A stretch of DNA of 64,000 nt, from the NCBI GenBank assembly GCA_027451885.1, contig DAIDHX010000146.1, positions 62,001-126,000 of the forward strand. The letters are read 5' to 3'. The stretch's first letter is position 1; every line of letters starts with the position of its first letter. A model generated the notes under the pieces. The model was not told the origin of the DNA, ran no database searches, and worked only from the letters and a program-made list of their open reading frames with translations. Of this stretch, positions 2,497-16,094 are shown in pieces. This stretch comes from Planctomycetales bacterium (GTDB lineage: Bacteria > Planctomycetota > Planctomycetia > Isosphaerales > Isosphaeraceae). Made by a program: the position numbers and the translations under genes.

Positions 2497-5400
2497 TCAG
2501 AAGTCAGAGGCGCGAGATGATGACACGTGTGCCCTGGGATTGGATCGCTTGCTGGGATTTCGGTCCTTCCAGGCGATCGGCGGTGGAATCAGCGAATGTG
2601 GTTTCAGGAGTCGTTGCCGTGAGTCGGTTGGGCGTGGCGCGGCGGCTTCGCGGACTTCGGGATCCAGGACTCGAGTCCGGCCCGAAGCGACCGAGCCAGG
2701 TTTCAGAACGTCCTTCAGCGTGGGGGATGCGCTCGTGGTTGCGGGTTGGGGTGCCGGCTGGGCTGGGCTGCCCTGAGCATCTTTTGATTTGACCGGGGCT
2801 TTGCTCGCCGGGGTCGCGGGATCGCTGACAAAAAGCTTCAAGGTCAGCGTCAAATCATTGAACGTTCTGAGCGGCCACTCTCCAAATCCCTCCCCTTCGA
2901 TCACGAGCGGGCGTGAGACCAGCGGCGCCAGCGGCTTCGCGGCCGAAATCAGCCCGATGTCGTTGAGCTTTGTCGCGACCTCACGCGCTAGCTCGTTGAG
3001 CTGGTCGGCTGTGATTACATAAGCGCCTTGCTTGAACGGCACATTCGCCGCGCGGTATTTGATGGACATTCCGCCCTGGATCGGAAACTCAATCGTCACA
3101 TTCGCACTCTTCCGAGACACCAGGGCAGAGTCGAACGGTTTGATGCGAAGCGTTGCCAGGGGATCGATCGCTGTTTCAAGAACCTGGTAGCTCGTGCCTC
3201 CGCTCGTCACCGCGATCCTGGCCTGGATTGCGAGCGTGTCATCCAGGAGAACGTAGGCTGCATCGCGGGTGCCGGGCTCGGGTTTTGGGTTGGTTCCTCC
3301 GCCTTCCGGGCCCTCCGCCCCGGGCGGCGGACCAGCGTGTGCTGGCAGATATGGAATCAAAAGCCTGTTCGAGATGCCGATCGGAGTCGCAACGTAGAGC
3401 TCCACGTACTGCTGGTTCTTATCAGGCTTGCCGTTGCCGGAGTTGTCGACGTTGATGTCGATGGGCGCATTGCGGATCTGCGAAGGGCGCACATCGGCCG
3501 GGAGTTTCAGGTGCATGACCTGCCGGCTGAGAATGTCCACCGTTCGGGAAAGATTCTGCCCCGCGGGCGCTGAATCATCCGGATCAATCACCTGGCCCCC
3601 GACCACGATCTTCGTCTCATTCAAGCTAAAGTGCCGGCCGAAGACCACAATGTCGGTCGACTTGCCTTCCTGAACGGCCTCCACGCCTTCGAAGCCGGTG
3701 AGCTCGGGAACCAGGGCGTTGATTCCTGGCTCGAAGAGCTGGAAGCCGCCGAGCGAGTTCTCGTATGGCACCTTGGTGTACCGAGTTTGCATGGGAAGCA
3801 TGGCTTCGAGCTGATCGACGCGCACGGCGAGCCGTTCATAGTCCCCCGCGCGATCGTGGGCGCACGACTGCGCATATTGCAGGGCTTCCTTGAGCGCGAC
3901 GATCTGCTGCCCCTGGATGATCATCCTGGAGGTCGGGACTCGCAGCTCGGCAGGGTCCTTGAGCTTGAACCAGTTCCCCGCGACATCGAACCGCACGCGT
4001 TCCAGGAACGAGGGCATGATAATCACGGCCGTGAGCTCGCGTTCGCCGGGCTCCAGCTTGGCGTTCTTGAGCTGATAGTCGCGCCCAGGTCCGCCGCGCC
4101 AAAGCATGTTCGCGATCACCTGGATGTTCGACGATTCGGACGGCGGGTTCTGGTATCGGGGATAAAACCGCCAACCAAACGTGTCATCGCCGTGCGAAAA
4201 GGATGTCACGGTCCGATTGAGCGCGATGGTCTCCGCATCCTGCTCGATCTTGCGATTGAACTGATCGAGCTGGCTAAAATTGATCTTGCCGGTGGAGAAC
4301 GCGAACGCGACCGCGAGCTGGAGGTCGCGCCTCAAACTGAACGCGTCGGCGATGTTTTGCTGGTCCACGACGGGATCGAGTGCAAAAACGATCATCGGCC
4401 AGCGGGCGCGCACATAGCGTTCGAACACGTTTTCGGCCTGGGGTGAGGGATCATAGTCGTAGAAGCTGAGCGATTCCGCCTCGGGTGCGGAGAAGCCGCG
4501 AATCCCCTCGGTGGCACGTATGTCCTTCTTGAGCGAGCGGTCAAGCAGGCCGGCCTCGACCGCCACGCACCAGGACAGAATGGTGAGCACCTCGTCCGGC
4601 TTGCCGCGCAGGTCGCCGGGCAGCCGGGTTGCGAACATCGGGAACGTCTCGGTGCGTAGCTCATGAAAACGTCGTGAGATGATCAAACCCGCGATTGACT
4701 CGATGTCTCCCTGGTAAAACGGGAGCATTTCATACGCGGCTTCGAGCTCGTGGTAGAGATAGCTCCGCACATCGGTGGCGCGGGGGATCACCGGCAAAAG
4801 CGCCTGACGCGTCTTTTTCGCCAGGGTGAACATTGAATCACGCAGGAAGACGTTGCTCACGTCGGAGGGAGCAATCGGGTAAACGCGCCCGCCGAATCGG
4901 GTCGAGGGAAACGCCGCCGCGGCGACACGCTCCAGTTGAATCGCGGACTGCAAAGCCTCGATCTTCCCAGCGTTCGACTGAAGTTTATCCGCGGATTTTT
5001 CGATCTTTGATCTCTCGTTCTCAAGATTTGTACGAGCTTGCTCAAACGTGCGAAGTCTTTCAAGAGCTGCTCGCAGAGCATCGATGTTGAGTGGCGCCCC
5101 GAGTTTCGCGGACAGGTCCACGAGCTCCCGTAGTTCTTCGAGATTCGGCAGCTCGGCCAAGACGGGATTCGCCGGTTGATCGCCCCCTGGCGATCTCGAC
5201 TCGAGAGCCCTCTCAACCGCGTTCTCGAGGCTCTGCGCCTGCTGACTCACGCGCGTGAGACTTTGCGACCGATCCCGCAACACGGCGAGCACTTTGGACG
5301 ATGCGACTGCATCCTGAATCTTCTGGACTCCCGCGACCATTGAAGTCATTGCCTCGAGCAATTTGCCGTAACTTTCGCCGATTTGAACGAGGATCACATC

Positions 5401-7092
5401 GCCGAGCGACTTCGGATCCTGGCCCTTAAGACGCCTGATCCGTGCGACCAGATCCTCGGGCTTGAGGGGCTCGGAGAGCGCCGCGGCGATGTCCGGATTC
5501 AGAGTGGGCCGCATGGCCAGAAAGCTGCTCCTGGCGTCACCAAGGATCAATTGAAACCTGCTCCACGAAGGGATCGTGAGTGCGCTGATTTCGCGGAGGT
5601 CGTTCTCGAGCTGCTCGAAGGACGAACGGACGCTCGCGATGGATTCCTGCTGCGAATCATCGATCCTCTCGAGCAGCTTGAGCGTTTCCACGATCTCATT
5701 GGATCGTTTCGCGAGATTCTCAAAAAACTGCTTGAGTTGCTCGAAATCCGGCTGGTCCGCGGCCTGTAACCCCTGCGCCTGATTGGCCGGGGTAAATATC
5801 TCGACATTGGCAACACTTGCTAAATACCGCACAAGCTGCGATCGCGACTCCGTGACGTTGCTTATCAGCCTGGACAGGATGCCGTTGAGAGCTTCGATTC
5901 GAGCCTGGGCCTTCGAAACGGTCTGCACGAGTTTCTTGAGCAGACTCACGATTGACCGTGTTCTCTCAAGAAACCCGGCTGTTTTCACCGCCAGTGCTTT
6001 CTGCCGCTCCGCTACCTTGCGCCCCTCGAGTGCCAGGTTCATTTCATCTTGCGCAAGCCGCTTCTGATCACTCAGGAGCTTTGCCTCGTCCAATTCCGCC
6101 TGGGGGAGAATTCCCGCCCGGATGAGTTCGTAGACGATCGGACCCAACTGATCAACGAGGTCATTAATCACAAGTTGCTTATAAGTATTATGGAGAAAGT
6201 TCGGCTGGAACTCGTGCCGTGCGGTCAGGGTCAGGAGCGCTCCATGGCCGCGGAGCGTGCGCTCACCGGGCTGGATCGAGATCGGCATCCGCACCAGGTA
6301 AAGGCCGTAGCCGGCCGAATCGGCGTTGTCGTCTCCCATGTTCACACGGCGAATTTCGTTCAGATGATCAAAGTAGCGTTTCTTCTCGTCTAGAAAGATC
6401 GTTGGATCGAGCCCTAACTTGCCGCCGTACTTCGAATCCATGTCGGAGAAAGGCTTGCTGCCGAGCAGGGCAAAAGGAGTGTCGGTCTGCAGGGGCTGGA
6501 TGTTCCAGAAATTGGAGGTCGGAGCGGGCGGCGGTGCGACGGTCGATCCCGAACTGCTCGCGCCAGACCCGGTTGACGATGCACTCGATGCGGGTGGGGG
6601 TTGTTGCACAACCACGGTCGGCGAAAGCGCGGCACTCGCCGATCCGCCCTGGCCAACCCCGCCAGCGGCCTTCTTTCGCGCAGCGCCCAAACCTCCGCCG
6701 CCACCGCCGCCGCCGCCGCCCCCACCCACAAGCGCAGCCGATAGACTCGTCTGACTCTCAAACGCCGCCGCGTCCAGCCGAGAAATCCGCGCTGAGAGGA
6801 TCGTGTGAAACTCGTCCGGACTCGTCGCCTTCATCATGTTCTCGAAGTCGCGGCGATACAGCGTCATCCGCGACTGGCCCCAAACATCTGGGTGCTTGAT
6901 CACCACGACACCGTCGGCACGAACCTGGGCCTCGATCGCGTCGATCGACTGAGCAAGCCGCGGCAACGACATCGGCACGCCGTCTTGCACCTTCTTGCCG
7001 TGTTGCGGCCAGTCACCCCCCAACAGCGGCCCCATGCCACAGGCAAGGACCAACGCGAAGGTCCCCAGACACGCCAGGATTCGTCCAACCAT
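2497..7092 (-). CDS. Giant secreted protein with polyglycine tract, coiled coil and IPT/TIG-like segment
   Basis: This 1531-aa protein starts with a hydrophobic signal sequence (ILACLGTFALVLACGMG); the VLAC-G context could be a lipobox, so it may be a lipoprotein. A run of 12 glycines lies near residues 122-135, followed by a Ser/Ala/Pro/Gln linker to about residue 190. Residues about 340-720 are rich in charged heptad-like helices and probably form coiled coils. Near residues 1130-1220 the pattern ...VVFGRHFSLNETKIVVGG resembles an IPT/TIG Ig-like fold. The C-terminus is Pro/Ser/Arg-rich and disordered. No enzyme motif is visible. A structural envelope or surface protein is an inference. Confidence 0.8.
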   Translation of the reverse strand: MVGRILACLGTFALVLACGMGPLLGGDWPQHGKKVQDGVPMSLPRLAQSIDAIEAQVRADGVVVIKHPDVWGQSRMTLYRRDFENMMKATSPDEFHTILSARISRLDAAAFESQTSLSAALVGGGGGGGGGGGGLGAARKKAAGGVGQGGSASAALSPTVVVQQPPPASSASSTGSGASSSGSTVAPPPAPTSNFWNIQPLQTDTPFALLGSKPFSDMDSKYGGKLGLDPTIFLDEKKRYFDHLNEIRRVNMGDDNADSAGYGLYLVRMPISIQPGERTLRGHGALLTLTARHEFQPNFLHNTYKQLVINDLVDQLGPIVYELIRAGILPQAELDEAKLLSDQKRLAQDEMNLALEGRKVAERQKALAVKTAGFLERTRSIVSLLKKLVQTVSKAQARIEALNGILSRLISNVTESRSQLVRYLASVANVEIFTPANQAQGLQAADQPDFEQLKQFFENLAKRSNEIVETLKLLERIDDSQQESIASVRSSFEQLENDLREISALTIPSWSRFQLILGDARSSFLAMRPTLNPDIAAALSEPLKPEDLVARIRRLKGQDPKSLGDVILVQIGESYGKLLEAMTSMVAGVQKIQDAVASSKVLAVLRDRSQSLTRVSQQAQSLENAVERALESRSPGGDQPANPVLAELPNLEELRELVDLSAKLGAPLNIDALRAALERLRTFEQARTNLENERSKIEKSADKLQSNAGKIEALQSAIQLERVAAAAFPSTRFGGRVYPIAPSDVSNVFLRDSMFTLAKKTRQALLPVIPRATDVRSYLYHELEAAYEMLPFYQGDIESIAGLIISRRFHELRTETFPMFATRLPGDLRGKPDEVLTILSWCVAVEAGLLDRSLKKDIRATEGIRGFSAPEAESLSFYDYDPSPQAENVFERYVRARWPMIVFALDPVVDQQNIADAFSLRRDLQLAVAFAFSTGKINFSQLDQFNRKIEQDAETIALNRTVTSFSHGDDTFGWRFYPRYQNPPSESSNIQVIANMLWRGGPGRDYQLKNAKLEPGERELTAVIIMPSFLERVRFDVAGNWFKLKDPAELRVPTSRMIIQGQQIVALKEALQYAQSCAHDRAGDYERLAVRVDQLEAMLPMQTRYTKVPYENSLGGFQLFEPGINALVPELTGFEGVEAVQEGKSTDIVVFGRHFSLNETKIVVGGQVIDPDDSAPAGQNLSRTVDILSRQVMHLKLPADVRPSQIRNAPIDINVDNSGNGKPDKNQQYVELYVATPIGISNRLLIPYLPAHAGPPPGAEGPEGGGTNPKPEPGTRDAAYVLLDDTLAIQARIAVTSGGTSYQVLETAIDPLATLRIKPFDSALVSRKSANVTIEFPIQGGMSIKYRAANVPFKQGAYVITADQLNELAREVATKLNDIGLISAAKPLAPLVSRPLVIEGEGFGEWPLRTFNDLTLTLKLFVSDPATPASKAPVKSKDAQGSPAQPAPQPATTSASPTLKDVLKPGSVASGRTRVLDPEVREAAAPRPTDSRQRLLKPHSLIPPPIAWKDRNPSKRSNPRAHVSSSRASDF

Positions 7093-8829: not shown

Positions 8830-10578
8830 TCAGGTTTCCCGCAGTTCGGGGGTTCGTTCGAGCAGGGATTGCTGGAGTTGCGCGCGGGAGTGGAGGAGTT
8901 GCTGATACCACGTGAGTCGTGTGCGGTAATGGTGTGAGAGCAGCCGATGATCGGCAACCATTTGATAGGCGTTGCGGCCGACCTTGAGCCGCAATGCGGG
9001 TTCGCGGAGGAGGCGCTTGAGGGTGGATTCGAATTCCGCGAGTGATTGGTAGAGGAACCCCGTTTCGCCGTGGCGAATGGAGCGATCGTAGACCGTGGGG
9101 CTTGCCAGTACGGTGATTCCGTGCGCGGCGGATTCGATGAATTTGAGATCGGACTTGTGCTGGTTGAATTGGCTGGGCTCAAGCGGCAGGAGTGCGACAT
9201 CGGCCGTCTCCAGGAGCATGTGGTAGCGTTCGTAGGAGCAAAGCGGCTCAAAGCTCTTGTGGGGCGTGATCAGAGCGTCGTGAAAGGTGCGATCGTGAAC
9301 CACCAGGACGTGCACCTGCCCGCCGAGCTCCGCAAGCACACGATTGATTGCGGGAACAAGAGGCGCCCAATCCGCTTCACGATTCAGGGCGCCGAAGAAA
9401 AGTGTGACCTGAGTGGCGGAGGGGTTCTCGGCGGAGGCGCGTTTGAGCGCCTGGGCTGCCCCCAGGCTCGCAACCTGATTCGGGAACACGGCGACTTCTG
9501 GATTCCAGGCACGGAGCGTTTGGGCCATGGTCTCCGTTGTGGTCTGCACGGCGTGGCAGCTCCGAAAGGCAAAGCCGTTGGTTGCGTTCAGCATGGGGAA
9601 ATGCGCGGGGTCGTCGTCGAACTCCGCAATGATCAGGTAACCGCGTTCAAGCAGGCTGCGCTGAAGATTCAAGTGTTCCGGGAGCGGTAAGACAATCCGT
9701 TGTTGAAGCAGGATTCGTTCCTCGCCCGGTTGAACATCGTTGAGCGATTCGAGTGTGAGCCGCGGCGAATGGCGAATGCGCACACCTGGGATCGTCGCCA
9801 GAAAGGCGAGGGGCTCCTGAATCCGAACCTCGCTGCCGATCTCCGAGCCGAGGAGTGCGCGGATGAGAGTGCGTGCTGGGGCGTGTGTCATGCGTCCCGC
9901 GCGGATCACGAACTGAACGACCGCGCTGCGCGTTGCAAAGTCAACCGCGTCGATCTTGAGACTCGAGAGCACGGGCTCGAGCAGATCACGAAAACGCGCT
10001 GGCTCCGCCCCGGGTGTGGAGCGTGTGACGACGTCGTGCACATGCAGCCCTGCGCGGGTGAAGAGCTCCAGGGCACCGTCGAGTGTGAAAAACCGCAGGT
10101 GCGTTCGGTCAAGTAGACCCTCGTCCTGATACTCCCACTTCCCGCGGAGCAGGTTTGCAACCACGGAATAGTGCTGAATGTTGGGAATGGAGGCAAGCAC
10201 CTGCCCCTCTGGGCGGACGAGTCGAACAAGCCGTTCGACGACCGACCAGGGGTCGACGAGATGCTCGAGGACATCGCCGAAGACGAGGCAATCGACGGTG
10301 GGAGTTGTGTCGTCGAGGTCGAGTCTACCTGGATCGAAGGTTTCCACATCTCCGACAAAGATGCGATCGAGGCGTCCTGGCATCACCGCGCGCTGGGCGG
10401 GCTCCAGGGCGCGCTCGACGCCGAGATAGGCAACCGAGGGATTGCGCGCGCGATATGCGGCGGCAAGTGCACCCGCACCACAGCCGATCTCGAGCACAAC
10501 TCGAGCATCGGGCGGCATCAGCCGGAAAAGCTCCGGGTTCACGCGATCGTAATAACCGATACTCACCAGCAACTCCAT
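8830..10578 (-). CDS. Methyltransferase-glycosyltransferase fusion protein
   Basis: This 582-aa protein joins two enzymes. Residues about 1-190 are a class I SAM-dependent methyltransferase with motif I VLEIGCGAG at residues 28-36 and a DVLEHLVDPW motif like UbiE/UbiG relatives. Residues about 250-570 look like a GT-B glycosyltransferase with the C-terminal pattern SAAHGITVLASPTVY and a LL-rich helical end. Such fusions usually modify surface glycans. The ATG at 10578 is the first canonical start, but the frame stays open for about 66 more codons upstream with protein-like composition, so the N-terminus may be longer. It is divergent from kdsD. Confidence 0.85.
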   Translation of the reverse strand: MELLVSIGYYDRVNPELFRLMPPDARVVLEIGCGAGALAAAYRARNPSVAYLGVERALEPAQRAVMPGRLDRIFVGDVETFDPGRLDLDDTTPTVDCLVFGDVLEHLVDPWSVVERLVRLVRPEGQVLASIPNIQHYSVVANLLRGKWEYQDEGLLDRTHLRFFTLDGALELFTRAGLHVHDVVTRSTPGAEPARFRDLLEPVLSSLKIDAVDFATRSAVVQFVIRAGRMTHAPARTLIRALLGSEIGSEVRIQEPLAFLATIPGVRIRHSPRLTLESLNDVQPGEERILLQQRIVLPLPEHLNLQRSLLERGYLIIAEFDDDPAHFPMLNATNGFAFRSCHAVQTTTETMAQTLRAWNPEVAVFPNQVASLGAAQALKRASAENPSATQVTLFFGALNREADWAPLVPAINRVLAELGGQVHVLVVHDRTFHDALITPHKSFEPLCSYERYHMLLETADVALLPLEPSQFNQHKSDLKFIESAAHGITVLASPTVYDRSIRHGETGFLYQSLAEFESTLKRLLREPALRLKVGRNAYQMVADHRLLSHHYRTRLTWYQQLLHSRAQLQQSLLERTPELRET

Positions 10579-10847
10579 CAGCCAGGGGACGCTGGAAGCC
10601 GTGCCGTTCCAGGCGAATGATGATCCATGAGAGGCGTTGTGGAAAGGTGATGGTGGGATGAGGCCGGTGGTGAACGAGCGAAAATCGGAATGATAGGCTG
10701 GCTGGGGATTCTGGGGATCTAACGAAGAATTTATGAGGGAGAGTCGATCGGGTTGTGTTGACCTGATCAGAGGGTTGAGTTATGGTCCTGGCGCTTGGGT
10801 GTGAGACGGGATCAAAGAGCGAGCCAGGCGGGGCAGGGAGGCCCACG
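10579..10847. other. Divergent upstream region between MT-GT gene and kdsD
   Basis: This 269-bp gap holds the kdsD promoter candidate and, on the minus strand, an in-frame extension of the methyltransferase-glycosyltransferase gene. That extension has no ATG, GTG or TTG before a stop near 10779. Confidence 0.6.
10758..10786 (+). promoter_or_regulatory. Sigma-70-type promoter for kdsD
   Basis: TTGACC at 10758-10763 and TATGGT at 10781-10786 are separated by 17 bp. Transcription would begin near 10793, giving a leader of about 55 nt before the ATG at 10848. The position rules against the earlier ATG at 10782 as a start, since that codon lies inside the -10 box. Confidence 0.55.
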
Positions 10848-11873
10848 ATGGCAACGATCACGGGCGCGCCTTCGGCCTCGGCAATCGAGGCGGAGGGACT
10901 GGCGTTTGCGCGCGAGGTCCTGCGCGTGGAGGCGGGGGCCCTCGAACGGGTGCGTGAGCGCCTGACGGGGACGATTGTGCGCGCGGCGGAATTGCTGCTG
11001 CGCTGCTCGGGGAGCGTGATCGTCACGGGGATGGGCAAGGCGGGGCTTGTGGGGCAGAAGCTGGCCTCGACGCTGGCTTCCACGGGCACGCGAGCGTTTC
11101 CCTTGCATCCGGCCGAGGCGGTGCATGGCGATCTGGGCCGAATTCGCGCGGGGGATGTGGTGCTCGCGCTTTCGCAGAGCGGTGAGACCGAGGAGATCGT
11201 CCGCCTGCTTCCCGCCATTCGACGCATCGGCGCATGCTTGATATCCATTACTGAGCGCGCGACGAGCGCACTTGGCCAGGCGTCGGACCTCTGCATCGAG
11301 CTTGGGCGTATCGAGGAGGCCTGCCCGCTTGGCCTGGCACCTTCCGCCAGCACCACCGTGCTGATGGCCGTGGGAGACGCCCTGGCTCTGCTCGTGAGCC
11401 GCCGCCGTGAATTCACAGCGCAGGACTTCGCCTTTTATCATCCCGCCGGCAGCCTGGGCCGCAAGCTCGCGCGTGTCGAGGAGATCATGCGGCAAGGCCG
11501 ACAGATCCGCACCGCCAGGGTTGATGAGACCGTTCGCGCTGTCTTTGTGAGCCAGGCTGGTCCGCGCCGGCGCTCAGGCGCTGTGCTCGTGATCGACGAA
11601 CACGAGACCTTGCTTGGCATTTTCACCGATAGCGATCTTGCCCGGCTGTTCGAGCGCAGACGGGAAGAAGAACTCGACCGGCCGATTGGGGAGGTCATGA
11701 CAGCGGACCCGTATTCGATCCCGATCGGCGCGCGTGTCAGCGAGGCCGTCGAGATCATGAAGACTTTTAAAATCAGCGAGCTTCCCGTGGTCGATGCCAA
11801 CCGGCGGCTGGTCGGGTTGATCGACGTGACCGACCTGATCGGGGTCGACGCGAGCGAGGTGGCTGAGGTTTGA
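10848..11873 (+). CDS. kdsD: Arabinose-5-phosphate isomerase (KdsD/GutQ family)
   Basis: This cytoplasmic enzyme converts ribulose 5-phosphate to arabinose 5-phosphate, the first step of Kdo synthesis for LPS. The 341-aa protein has an N-terminal SIS sugar-isomerase domain (VIVTGMGKAGLVGQKLAS, then HPAEAVHGDLGRI and ALSQSGETEEI) and two C-terminal CBS repeats (about residues 210-335), the normal layout and length. The start at 10848 is chosen because AGGGAGG lies 7 nt upstream and the promoter overlaps the earlier ATG. The next gene, 42 nt downstream, is LptC/LptA-like, echoing the kdsD-kdsC-lptC-lptA order of proteobacteria. Confidence 0.95.
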   Translation: MATITGAPSASAIEAEGLAFAREVLRVEAGALERVRERLTGTIVRAAELLLRCSGSVIVTGMGKAGLVGQKLASTLASTGTRAFPLHPAEAVHGDLGRIRAGDVVLALSQSGETEEIVRLLPAIRRIGACLISITERATSALGQASDLCIELGRIEEACPLGLAPSASTTVLMAVGDALALLVSRRREFTAQDFAFYHPAGSLGRKLARVEEIMRQGRQIRTARVDETVRAVFVSQAGPRRRSGAVLVIDEHETLLGIFTDSDLARLFERRREEELDRPIGEVMTADPYSIPIGARVSEAVEIMKTFKISELPVVDANRRLVGLIDVTDLIGVDASEVAEV

Positions 11874-11915
11874 GGTTCTGGCCCGATCGGCGCTTGTGGG
11901 CGCGGGCCTGGGACC

Positions 11916-14900
11916 ATGGCGTGCGTTGTTTGGACTTCGATCCCCCGCGCTTGGGACGAAAGACGAGTGCTCAAGAAGCTGGTCAAGGCTGGGACCACCT
12001 TCACCCTTTTGCTGGGGTGCTATTTCGTCTATGTGCGCGCTTTTGGTTTTCTTGTTGAGCATGTGAGTGAGTCTCGACCGCGGAGTTCCACGATGTTCGT
12101 GGCCCGCGATTCGAAGTCCAAGCTGGAGGCGATCGCAATCGCCCGGGCGGCGTTTGGCAAGAGCCACTGGAGCGGCGATCGCGATCTGCCCTATCGGTAC
12201 TACAGCGCGGAACGCGGCTTCTGGATTTACGCCAAGCAGGTCTGGCGGATCTCGGAGGAAAACGGCGTCAAGTATGATGGCAAGCGGCTTCGGATGACCC
12301 CATTCGCGCTTGTATCGCGCTCGCGGGATGGGCGCGTGACCAAGACGGTCGAGAGCGACGAAGCGATTTTCGACCTGAATGAGCCGTTGAGCTTGAACGT
12401 GAGTTCGAACGGCGAGTCGCTCAAGATCAAGCATGCCAGGATCGAGCGGAATGTCATGATCCGCGACGATCATGGCACGCCGAGCGATCCGAGCGACGAT
12501 ATGCGGATTGGTCCGCTGTCGATCGTCGAATACGATGCGGGAAACGAGCGGATCGAGAGCCCTTCCGACGTCGTGATTCAGGATCGGGACATCCGGGTCA
12601 CGGGCAGACATCTTGAGATCACGCTTTGGTCTGATCAATCTGGAAAGCCCGGTGGAGGATTTGGCGGCGCCAAGCAGCTCAGGCTCTTCGAAAACGTGCA
12701 TGTGGTAATGCGCGACGTTGGTAAGTCGGGCCTGTTGCCCGGGGCAAGCGACAGCAAACGGAGTGTCGATGCCACGGTTACCGTCGATCAGACCGGCAAG
12801 CCCGCGTCGAAGGCGTCTCAGCCGACCCCGCTTGACCTGCGCTGCGATAGCGAGATGCAGGTGGATCTGCCGCGTCCGAGCCTGGGCGTGGAGGTGGGGC
12901 CGCCTGAGCCACCCGCACCAACTTTCGTGCGCTTTGATCGCAACGTGGTCGTGCTCCGAGGACCAGCGAGTGGGCGCCCCGATCAGCTCACCTGCGATAC
13001 CTTGCGGCTCACCATGGTTCCCAACGATGCAACGGGGGCCAGGGCCGCGCAGCCCAGGCCCACGCAAGCCACGGCGGAGCAGCCCGCACTGGCGTCGCGC
13101 CCGCCAGAGCAGTCGGCCGCGCAGCCGGCTCAGAATCCGTCCCCCTCGACGGCCTCGACAGCAACCGCCCCCGCGGCCGCAACCGAGCCAGGCGCTTCGC
13201 CGCCGGACGATGGACTCTTCGGCGGCTTGACGCTCGAACGCGCCCACGCAACCGGCCACGCGGTCTGGCTGCTTTTGCCGACCAGCGGAGTCAAGCTCCG
13301 CTGCAACGAGCTCATCCATAAGAAGCAGAATCCGCTCCGGCCCGATGAAACCTATTTCCGGGGCGATCTCACCCGGCCGCTTGAACTCGAGAAACTGGAT
13401 TACGCGCCCGACTCAGACAAGGTTACCGCGGTCACGCATGTCTGGACGATCGACGCCACACTCTTCGATGACGGCTCGGGCCTTGATTCCGCGGACGTCG
13501 TTGCGCATGGGCCCGGCCGGCTCGAGACCAGGCCCGACCGCGATCAACCGGTCGATCGAATCGCCGTGTGGCAAGACAAACTGGTGGTGCTGAACGAAGT
13601 CGACGACGCGGGACGGATTGTCCAGAAGATCGTTGATCTCACCGGCACGCGTCCTGCTTTCATCGACAAGCTGCAAGAGACCCGGCTCGATTCTGGCCGT
13701 CTCTTGCGCATCTGGCTAAAGCCCAAACCCCGGGTTGAGTCGAGCCCGGATGCGCGTCTGGCTCAGGCGAATCCGAGCACGAAGCCGGAGGGGACTTCCG
13801 TTGCTGGCGGGGTGAAATCGCCAGAGCCGCGGGGCGAGGGTGCAAACCCGCCTGGGAGCCTGGGGCTTGGCGGCGGCGGATTTCGGATCGATCGATTGCT
13901 GGCGTATCGCGATGCGCATTTGCAAGCGCCTGCGCGTGTGATGACAGCGCGGCAGCGGCTTGACGCGGAATTCGTGGAAGATCCCGCGCCTGTGGCAGCG
14001 CCCGCGGCCCAGCCCGTGGTTGCGTCCACAGCGCCCGCGACCCCGGCGCCCGCCGAGAACCCTGCGCCCGAGGAGACTCCCGCATCCGCGGCGTCCCAGC
14101 CTGAACAGGCCAGCCGGGCCATGGTCGGTTCGGCTGATCGCATCTGGGCTCGCGTCGCCCTGCTGCCGGAAAAACCAAAACCGAAAGACACAGCGGCGGC
14201 CTCGCAGCCTCAGGAAGATTCCGCCAGTGTCGCGCTTGCGGCGCAGAATCCGGCTGGTGTCACGCCTGCCGTGAAGCCCCAGCCTTCCAAGCCGGGAGGA
14301 CTGGGATCGCGTTCCGAGATCCGCAAGGTCTGGCTCTTCGGCTCGGTGGCCGTGCATCAAGATCCCGCGCCCGGCAAGAGCCAGGCCGATGAGGCTTACG
14401 GCGAGGCCATGTATCTGGAAAACCCTGGACCAGGGCGGGCGATCACGCACATCTATCATCGCGACCCGACCGAGGAGCCGCCGCGGCCAGGCCCGCTCCC
14501 GCTCGCCTGGGTTGTCAACGAGGATCGTTCAATCAAGGGGGAGCTGATTCGCGTCGACCAGGCCGCGGATCGGGTGTATGTCGATGGACCGGGAACGTCG
14601 ACCCAGCTCGCCGATCGCAACTTCCTCAGTGACAAGAAACCCGAGGAGGAAGGCGAGTCGGAGACGCAGCCCGAGGTCGACGCGAGCGGGCGCATTGTGC
14701 GCACGACCTCCGCGGCGAGCGACGGCGGCGCGGCCGCTCACGATCAGACTCGCACGACCGCGCCGCCCGCCGGCGCAAATTCCACCGCAACCGCCGCCGG
14801 CGCAGAATCAGAGCCCAAACCCGCTCCCAAGCCCAGAACCCGCGCAGGCAAGCCGCTGTCTCAAAAGGCGCCCTATTCCATCACCTGGACCAAGAAAATG

Positions 14901-16094
14901 GAGTTCTTCGGGCGCTCCCGCGATCCTGACGGAAATCCCTGCGCCAGGGCGATCTTCTACGGCAAAGTACGGGCCGACATGGAAGACGGGCTGATTCAGT
15001 GCGAGGACCACATGATCACCTACACCGATCGTGAGGTTCCGCTCGCGCACCTTGGTGCGCTCGCACAGGCGACTTCAAAGTCGGCGGAGGATGAGCAGGC
15101 CGAGGACGAATCCAGGCCCAAGCCTGAGCTCGCGCTGGTGGAATGCTTCCAGAAGGCGGTGGCCATCAACCGCAAGGTTGACCCCGTGCGCCCGGTCGAA
15201 CTCGAGCGTCAGATGATTCAGGGCGATTACTTGCGATACGACAAGCGCACGGGCGAATTCTACGTTCCGGGCAAGGGCTACGTGCACCTGTACGACCGCT
15301 CGAGCGGGCAAGATGCCGCGATGCAGGACGGGAGCGCAAACCCAGGTGAAAAACCGAGCGCCTCACGCAATGCAAGTAAGCCCGCGGCCAACGCGCCAGA
15401 GAGCTCAGGGCGAGAAAAGGCCAGGAAGGGGAAGAAATCGAAGAGCGACGAGCTGCCCCCGCTCGTGCTCACCCAGATCAAATTTATGACCGGCATGCGC
15501 GGGCGGTTTGGCGTGGGCAAGTCGACCGACGTAACCGAAACGCGCTGGGCGGAATTCTTCGGCTACGTTGAAACCGTGCGCGCGAAGGTGCCCGACGTGC
15601 ACACGTTCCTTAAGCCAGATAAGCTCCCCAAGGATGGATTCTTCCTCACAGGGCAAACGCTCCGCGTGATCACAGAGCCGCCGCCGCCTGGCTCCCCCAG
15701 GTCGACTCCGTCGCGCAACTATCTCAAGGCGTGGGACAATGCCTACGTCTGGAGCCAGGACAAGACCATGCAGGCGGATGTGATTACTTACGATTCATAC
15801 AAGGATTTGATCTACGCCTACGGCGAGAACGGTCGTGGCGTGGTGTATGCCCAGCAGTATGCCGTCGGTCAACCTGCGCCACCCGAAACGGTACGTGCCG
15901 TTCAACTGAATCCCAAGACGGGCGGAGCACACTTCATCGACGGCAGCACGATTTCGACGATCGATCAGCGCACGGGAGTGCGGCCCACGCGAATCGAAGC
16001 GCCTGAGCCTTTCCCCAAGGTCGGGAAAAAGAAGAAGGGCCCTGTTCGCGTACCGTTTAGCAACATGGAGCGGCGGGACTTCAACTCCCAGTGA
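11916..16094 (+). CDS. Giant LptC/LptA (OstA)-like envelope protein
   Basis: This 1392-aa protein has one N-terminal membrane segment (about residues 21-47) and a long periplasmic part. Residues about 100-260 follow the LptC/OstA style of short beta strands: FDLNEPLSLNV, SIVEYDAGNERIESPSDVV, then IRVTGRHLEITL. Ala/Pro/Gln linkers lie near residues 370-430, 685-735 and 910-980, separating further beta-rich blocks; the block near 985-1045 again has an OstA-like look (FYGKVRADMEDGLIQCEDHM). LptC (about 190 aa) and LptA (about 180 aa) bridge LPS from the inner to the outer membrane, so this would be a multi-domain version. Its place 42 nt after kdsD supports that role. The start is uncertain: ATG 11916 or GTG 11967. 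The 3' end overlaps the convergent next gene by 14 nt. Confidence 0.7.
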   Translation: MACVVWTSIPRAWDERRVLKKLVKAGTTFTLLLGCYFVYVRAFGFLVEHVSESRPRSSTMFVARDSKSKLEAIAIARAAFGKSHWSGDRDLPYRYYSAERGFWIYAKQVWRISEENGVKYDGKRLRMTPFALVSRSRDGRVTKTVESDEAIFDLNEPLSLNVSSNGESLKIKHARIERNVMIRDDHGTPSDPSDDMRIGPLSIVEYDAGNERIESPSDVVIQDRDIRVTGRHLEITLWSDQSGKPGGGFGGAKQLRLFENVHVVMRDVGKSGLLPGASDSKRSVDATVTVDQTGKPASKASQPTPLDLRCDSEMQVDLPRPSLGVEVGPPEPPAPTFVRFDRNVVVLRGPASGRPDQLTCDTLRLTMVPNDATGARAAQPRPTQATAEQPALASRPPEQSAAQPAQNPSPSTASTATAPAAATEPGASPPDDGLFGGLTLERAHATGHAVWLLLPTSGVKLRCNELIHKKQNPLRPDETYFRGDLTRPLELEKLDYAPDSDKVTAVTHVWTIDATLFDDGSGLDSADVVAHGPGRLETRPDRDQPVDRIAVWQDKLVVLNEVDDAGRIVQKIVDLTGTRPAFIDKLQETRLDSGRLLRIWLKPKPRVESSPDARLAQANPSTKPEGTSVAGGVKSPEPRGEGANPPGSLGLGGGGFRIDRLLAYRDAHLQAPARVMTARQRLDAEFVEDPAPVAAPAAQPVVASTAPATPAPAENPAPEETPASAASQPEQASRAMVGSADRIWARVALLPEKPKPKDTAAASQPQEDSASVALAAQNPAGVTPAVKPQPSKPGGLGSRSEIRKVWLFGSVAVHQDPAPGKSQADEAYGEAMYLENPGPGRAITHIYHRDPTEEPPRPGPLPLAWVVNEDRSIKGELIRVDQAADRVYVDGPGTSTQLADRNFLSDKKPEEEGESETQPEVDASGRIVRTTSAASDGGAAAHDQTRTTAPPAGANSTATAAGAESEPKPAPKPRTRAGKPLSQKAPYSITWTKKMEFFGRSRDPDGNPCARAIFYGKVRADMEDGLIQCEDHMITYTDREVPLAHLGALAQATSKSAEDEQAEDESRPKPELALVECFQKAVAINRKVDPVRPVELERQMIQGDYLRYDKRTGEFYVPGKGYVHLYDRSSGQDAAMQDGSANPGEKPSASRNASKPAANAPESSGREKARKGKKSKSDELPPLVLTQIKFMTGMRGRFGVGKSTDVTETRWAEFFGYVETVRAKVPDVHTFLKPDKLPKDGFFLTGQTLRVITEPPPPGSPRSTPSRNYLKAWDNAYVWSQDKTMQADVITYDSYKDLIYAYGENGRGVVYAQQYAVGQPAPPETVRAVQLNPKTGGAHFIDGSTISTIDQRTGVRPTRIEAPEPFPKVGKKKKGPVRVPFSNMERRDFNSQ

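Follow-up and report, generated by a model that had tools for sequence, protein, structure and literature searches.

The window analysed here is a stretch of 64,000 nucleotides from contig C146 of a 6.18 Mb assembly (98% complete, 316 contigs), whose named relatives belong to the Isosphaeraceae and include Singulisphaera and Tautonia. A first-pass annotation of this DNA had proposed that kdsD is followed by one long open reading frame. This was borne out, the second gene being a single intact frame of 1392 codons. Two genes of the forward strand thus define the locus:

10782..11873, + strand: kdsD, 363 aa; arabinose-5-phosphate isomerase, first enzyme of the Kdo pathway, with SIS and two CBS domains
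11967..16094, + strand: giant protein predicted to unite LptC and (LptA)n in one chain; 1375 aa when counted from the probable GTG start

The kdsD product scored 251.6 bits against TIGR00393 (kpsF/GutQ; cut-off 203.7) and also matched Pfam PF01380 and PF00571; an internal ATG at 10848 is a plausible start. The end of kdsD is separated by 42 bases from the longest form of the giant frame (11916-16094, + strand, 1392 aa), which contains no internal stop. Since several orthologues begin at residue 18, the true start of the giant protein is probably the GTG at 11967. With respect to the nearest relative, dN was about 0.29 and dS about 1.71, and substitutions were concentrated at third codon positions (361/267/753 by codon position). 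This purifying selection, together with the presence of homologues in 13 of 13 genomes of the family, indicates that the frame is a real gene. Scanning the locus for promoters and terminators revealed weak consensus matches only.

The giant protein could be divided into an N-terminal helix, predicted beta blocks and Ala/Pro linkers, as follows (residue numbers refer to the 1392-aa frame):

11970..12050, + strand: N-terminal membrane-anchor helix, residues ~19-45, with a hydrophobic peak near residue 29 and LptC-like topology
12084..12740, + strand: predicted LptC-like jelly-roll region, residues ~57-275 (AlphaFold2 and Foldseek of the N-terminal half; LptC HMM matches of orthologues in the corresponding N-terminal region)
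12800..13035, + strand: predicted OstA/LptA-like beta repeat, residues ~300-373, then Ala/Pro linker 375-432 (AlphaFold2 strands, linker mask)
13219..14000, + strand: predicted OstA/LptA-like beta blocks, residues ~435-690, interrupted by linker 614-649 (AlphaFold2 pLDDT 80-94, profile match to LptA-type relatives)
14298..14640, + strand: predicted OstA/LptA-like beta block, residues ~795-905, flanked by linkers 690-734/754-795 and 906-979 (AlphaFold2, profile match)
14868..15295, + strand: predicted OstA/LptA-like beta block, residues ~985-1127, WTKKMEFFG...FYGKVRADMED..., then linker 1133-1176 (AlphaFold2 pLDDT up to 95, profile E 5e-11)
15462..16010, + strand: predicted C-terminal OstA/LptA-like jelly-roll, residues ~1183-1365, the predicted LptD-facing end (TIGR03002 match, PF03968 match of an orthologue, Foldseek LptA matches of the C-terminal half)

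The anchor and the beta blocks correspond to the first description of the protein, but the three long linkers given there do not: we counted eleven low-complexity stretches of at least 8 residues (326 residues in total), five of which exceeded 30 residues (375-432, 614-649, 690-734, 934-979 and 1133-1176). The motif LLLGC was considered as a lipoprotein signal and rejected, the Cys not being conserved in the orthologue alignment. Among 25 members of the class, the non-linker core measured 1005 ± 63 aa (CV 6%), while the linkers varied from 17 to 433 aa (CV 67%). This nearly constant core with variable linkers suggests that the linkers are lineage-specific additions, heaviest in the Isosphaeraceae. 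Shared ancestry alone could also be the cause of the constancy of the core.

We then compared the protein with models of known Lpt components. By itself, the window protein reached none of the curated Lpt cut-offs: the LptA model TIGR03002 gave 15.7 bits (cut-off 71.7) at residues 1273-1306, and the LptC models PF06835 and TIGR04409 gave no match. Aligned by hhalign with the individual E. coli proteins LptC and LptA, it gave weak scores (for LptA, E 0.003 over residues 1266-1310), and the link had to be made through shorter relatives outside the class; a phmmer search of PDB sequences with the giant protein returned nothing useful. No match was obtained when contigs were scanned with the single giant protein by exact 8-mers, which are not conserved, whereas an alignment used as query did give matches. 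Searching eleven orthologues against 18,950 NCBIfam models revealed two recurring models, LptC in six of the eleven and LptA in six of the eleven; where both matched the same orthologue, LptC was N-terminal and LptA C-terminal. The orthologues were below cut-off for the LptC models (best E 3e-4), and the C-terminus of one of them exceeded that of PF03968 (22.3 vs 20.4). In other families of the class the LptA match reached E 1e-8 to 1e-9; most class members were below the curated LptA cut-offs.

Shorter chains were found in planctomycetes outside the class:

L117, 5047-7023: LptC-LptA chain of 658 aa, behind kdsD-kdsC
L121, 5140-7134: LptC-LptA chain, behind kdsD-kdsC
L122, 4931-6856: LptC-LptA chain, behind kdsD-kdsC

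These chains of 641-664 aa contain one LptC and two or three LptA stretches. They exceeded the cut-offs of the LptC models (TIGR04409, 71.6 vs 38; PF06835, 61.1 vs 21) and of PF03968 (75.1 vs 20.4, in two or three stretches); with TIGR03002 one was over (72.1 vs 71.7) and two were just under (70.2 and 69.4). The class profile matched them with a probability of 98.7% (E 3e-16). Standing at or over both curated cut-offs, they tie the giant family directly to Lpt. They are shorter than the giants of the class, nearer to canonical sequence and poor in linkers, and constitute a small model for structural work.

The gene and its neighbourhood were conserved. All class members examined had a homologue, of 988-1539 aa, and at each of the 26 class loci checked the giant gene adjoined kdsD, a positive outcome for the co-conservation with kdsD that had been put forward for checking. 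The kdsD gene lay directly upstream in 13/13 genomes of the family, window included, in 8/8 genomes of five other families and in 5/5 further class genomes; at L089 the two genes overlap by 4 bp. At most of the loci examined outside the class, kdsC was located between kdsD and the giant gene or right before the latter. The class model matched 33 of the 147 phylum genomes drawn, ten same-class genomes being listed as full length and 23 others as partial; most other genomes drawn from the phylum gave no match. Two further frames of the window were noted. The first (8830-10578, - strand), divergent from kdsD, combines a methyltransferase and a glycosyltransferase-like domain in one fusion, and its product could have a role in surface-glycan synthesis. 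The second (2497-7092, - strand) is an ORF of 1531 aa for which a Pfam search gave no confident match (weak HEF_HK, E 0.0027).

In order to compare the beta blocks with the jelly-rolls of LptC and LptA, as the first-pass annotation had suggested, AlphaFold2 was run on each half of the protein, using alignments of only 13 and 10 sequences of related-locus proteins. Residues 50-700 (pLDDT 72, pTM 0.69, 34 strands) and 690-1392 (pLDDT 64, pTM 0.62, 31 strands) were both predicted as almost all beta. Overall confidence was moderate, with folded blocks at pLDDT 80-95 and linkers below 50. Foldseek against the PDB matched both halves to LptC or LptA with prob 1.00. For the N-terminal half the matches were LptC 3my2 (prob 1.00, TMt 0.67, rmsd 4.0) and 4b54 (prob 1.00, TMt 0.69), together with LptA 2r19 (TMt 0.57) and LptDE 5iv9 (prob 0.72). 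The C-terminal half matched LptA 2r19_B (prob 1.00, TMt 0.70), 2r1a_H (0.61) and 2r1a_E (0.59, rmsd 3.1), LptC as well, and many further LptA and LptC chains at prob 0.96-1.00. As the Foldseek output carries no query positions, LptC was placed at the first block from the HMM evidence. LptA has about 16 strands, and the 65 predicted strands lead us to estimate a module number of roughly four LptA-sized units.

The Foldseek E-values of the Lpt matches were weak (0.006-0.2), and DDB1 and teneurin entries outranked them by E-value, but with prob below 0.2; we treated the latter as noise from long beta-repeat queries. Such entries, together with the low sequence identity and the many Ala/Pro linkers, would be expected of a long beta-repeat protein of the surface or adhesin type that resembles OstA by chance. 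We give this explanation almost no credence, considering the membrane-anchored LptC-like N-terminus, the synteny with kdsD throughout the class, the relatives that exceed curated thresholds, and the gap between the prob values of these unrelated folds and the 1.00 obtained for LptC and LptA.

We next searched the genome for the rest of the Lpt machinery and for separate lptC and lptA genes. LptB was found on contig C115 (333 bits, cut-off 240), LptF and LptG in tandem on C156 (PF03739 over cut-off), and an LptD homologue on C211, by similarity to the LptD of a relative; PF04453 did not match this homologue. The giant protein as LptD was rejected, since the homologue on C211 is separate. Across the whole genome PF06835 and PF03968 gave no match, and the sole match of TIGR03002 was the giant ORF. 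The earlier remark that no short lptA or lptC lies nearby is therefore true, and it extends to the whole genome at the sensitivity of these three models. In relatives, LptA-model matches fell on giant or LptD ORFs, with the exception of one 373-aa frame, neither giant nor LptD, in G004 (contig C72, 9598-9720, - strand; weak match, E 0.25). Closed single-contig genomes gave the same picture.

Two further explanations have to be weighed against these data. The chain could be only part of the bridge, either because it oligomerises or because short LptA copies that went unrecognised work with it. The sensitivity of HMMs is limited, most class members miss the LptA cut-offs and the assembly is 98% complete, all of which would leave room for such copies; the near restriction of LptA-model matches in relatives to the giant ORF and LptD, and the agreement of the closed genomes, make this unlikely in our opinion. 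Alternatively, the protein, though related to LptC/LptA, could work as TamB/YhdP bridges do and move a lipid other than LPS (a phospholipid, glycolipid or hopanoid-type lipid) between the membranes. Elongated, hydrophobic beta folds are common to bridge proteins, and the ligand cannot be read from sequence. However, the gene adjoins kdsD of the Kdo pathway in the loci examined, with kdsC in addition outside the class, the genome encodes LptB, LptFG and LptD, HMM and structure comparisons both point to LptC and LptA, and the Pfam search gave no match to the AsmA/TamB family. We thus consider a carrier of another lipid quite improbable.

The fold matches and the absence, at HMM sensitivity, of separate lptC and lptA genes support the single-chain LptC/LptA bridge proposed in the first-pass annotation. 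Taken together, our results indicate that the giant protein is very probably a natural LptC-(LptA)n fusion, which would bridge the periplasm as one chain and conduct LPS from LptFG toward LptD. We infer that one chain alone may span the periplasm and carry LPS, binding it, contacting LptFG and LptD and stacking its modules end to end. The N-terminal helix would sit in the inner membrane with LptF and LptG, as that of LptC does, and the first jelly-roll would receive LPS from LptF. The beta modules after it would line up into a serial groove that ends at the C-terminal module, from which LPS would move on to the jelly-roll at the N-terminus of LptD; LptB2FG would drive the flow. The Ala/Pro linkers would be variable loops on a beta core whose length hardly changes. 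The LPS steps from LptF through the modules to LptD are modelled on established Lpt biology (PMC9972910).

Comparison with E. coli reveals both likenesses and differences. The order kdsD-(kdsC)-lptC-lptA of the E. coli kdsD-kdsC-lptC-lptA-lptB cluster is matched by the planctomycete loci, although lptB is not adjacent to the giant gene and kdsC is absent between the two genes in the class. The succession of anchor, LptC jelly-roll and LptA jelly-roll is the same, and the LptB, LptFG and LptD partners are likewise encoded. With LptC the giant protein shares a single N-terminal transmembrane anchor followed by a jelly-roll (hydrophobic helix; N-terminal half, prob 1.00). LptA is a small soluble periplasmic protein with a cleaved signal peptide, whereas its counterpart here is fused behind the LptC-like anchor. 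The two short E. coli proteins (191 and 185 aa) are thus replaced by one chain of 988-1539 aa, with several LptA-type modules covalently in series and long linkers. The N-terminal jelly-roll/OstA domain of LptD (PF03968) belongs to the same repeat family, but the giant protein has no C-terminal outer-membrane barrel. The AsmA-like proteins TamB, YhdP and YdbH each bridge two membranes by a single long chain that has a beta groove. They serve only as a working analogy, as the giant protein is of a different family and its context and fold point to Lpt. Diderm Firmicutes have two separate OstA proteins of about 200 aa (PMC5007114). A search of open-access literature gave no published account of LptC and LptA occurring naturally as one bridge chain.

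Two ECF-type sigma factors fused to a hydrophobic stretch and an LptC-like paralogue were observed in Singulisphaera, one in S. acidiphila DSM 18658 (L072, 8185-9900, + strand) and one in Singulisphaera sp. GP187 (L023, 7857-10247, - strand). Each is a single ORF in which Sigma70_r2 and r4_2 exceed their cut-offs, and the paralogue corresponds to the N-terminal part of the giant protein (residues 22-275, or to about 603). They are possibly membrane-bound sigma factors that sense LPS transport. No such fusion was found when it was looked for in the genome of the window. As a broader and tentative proposal, the entire periplasmic LPS bridge of the Planctomycetia might consist of a single covalent chain, in which a fixed number of jelly-rolls serves as a ruler for the distance between inner and outer membranes, with lineage-specific loops attaching it to the unusual cell wall, and the LptC-like copies joined to ECF sigma factors in Singulisphaera as putative sensors of LPS flow.

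A survey of outer-membrane genes described the planctomycete Lpt system as 'largely reduced' (PMC8871954); this is explicable if the parts are present, but fused and so far diverged that standard models miss them. An earlier study from 2012 used LptD and BamA as outer-membrane markers and found them in every planctomycete available at that time, among them Isosphaera and Singulisphaera, LptA and LptC not being mentioned in its main text (PMC3422733). The number of LptA units in the bridge and the need for assembling separate units are open questions in Lpt biology, and a natural chain with a fixed number of fused modules makes both testable. Whether planctomycetes possess a Gram-negative outer membrane has long been disputed. 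The set LptB-FG-C/A-D is complete, which speaks for regarding these bacteria as LPS diderms.
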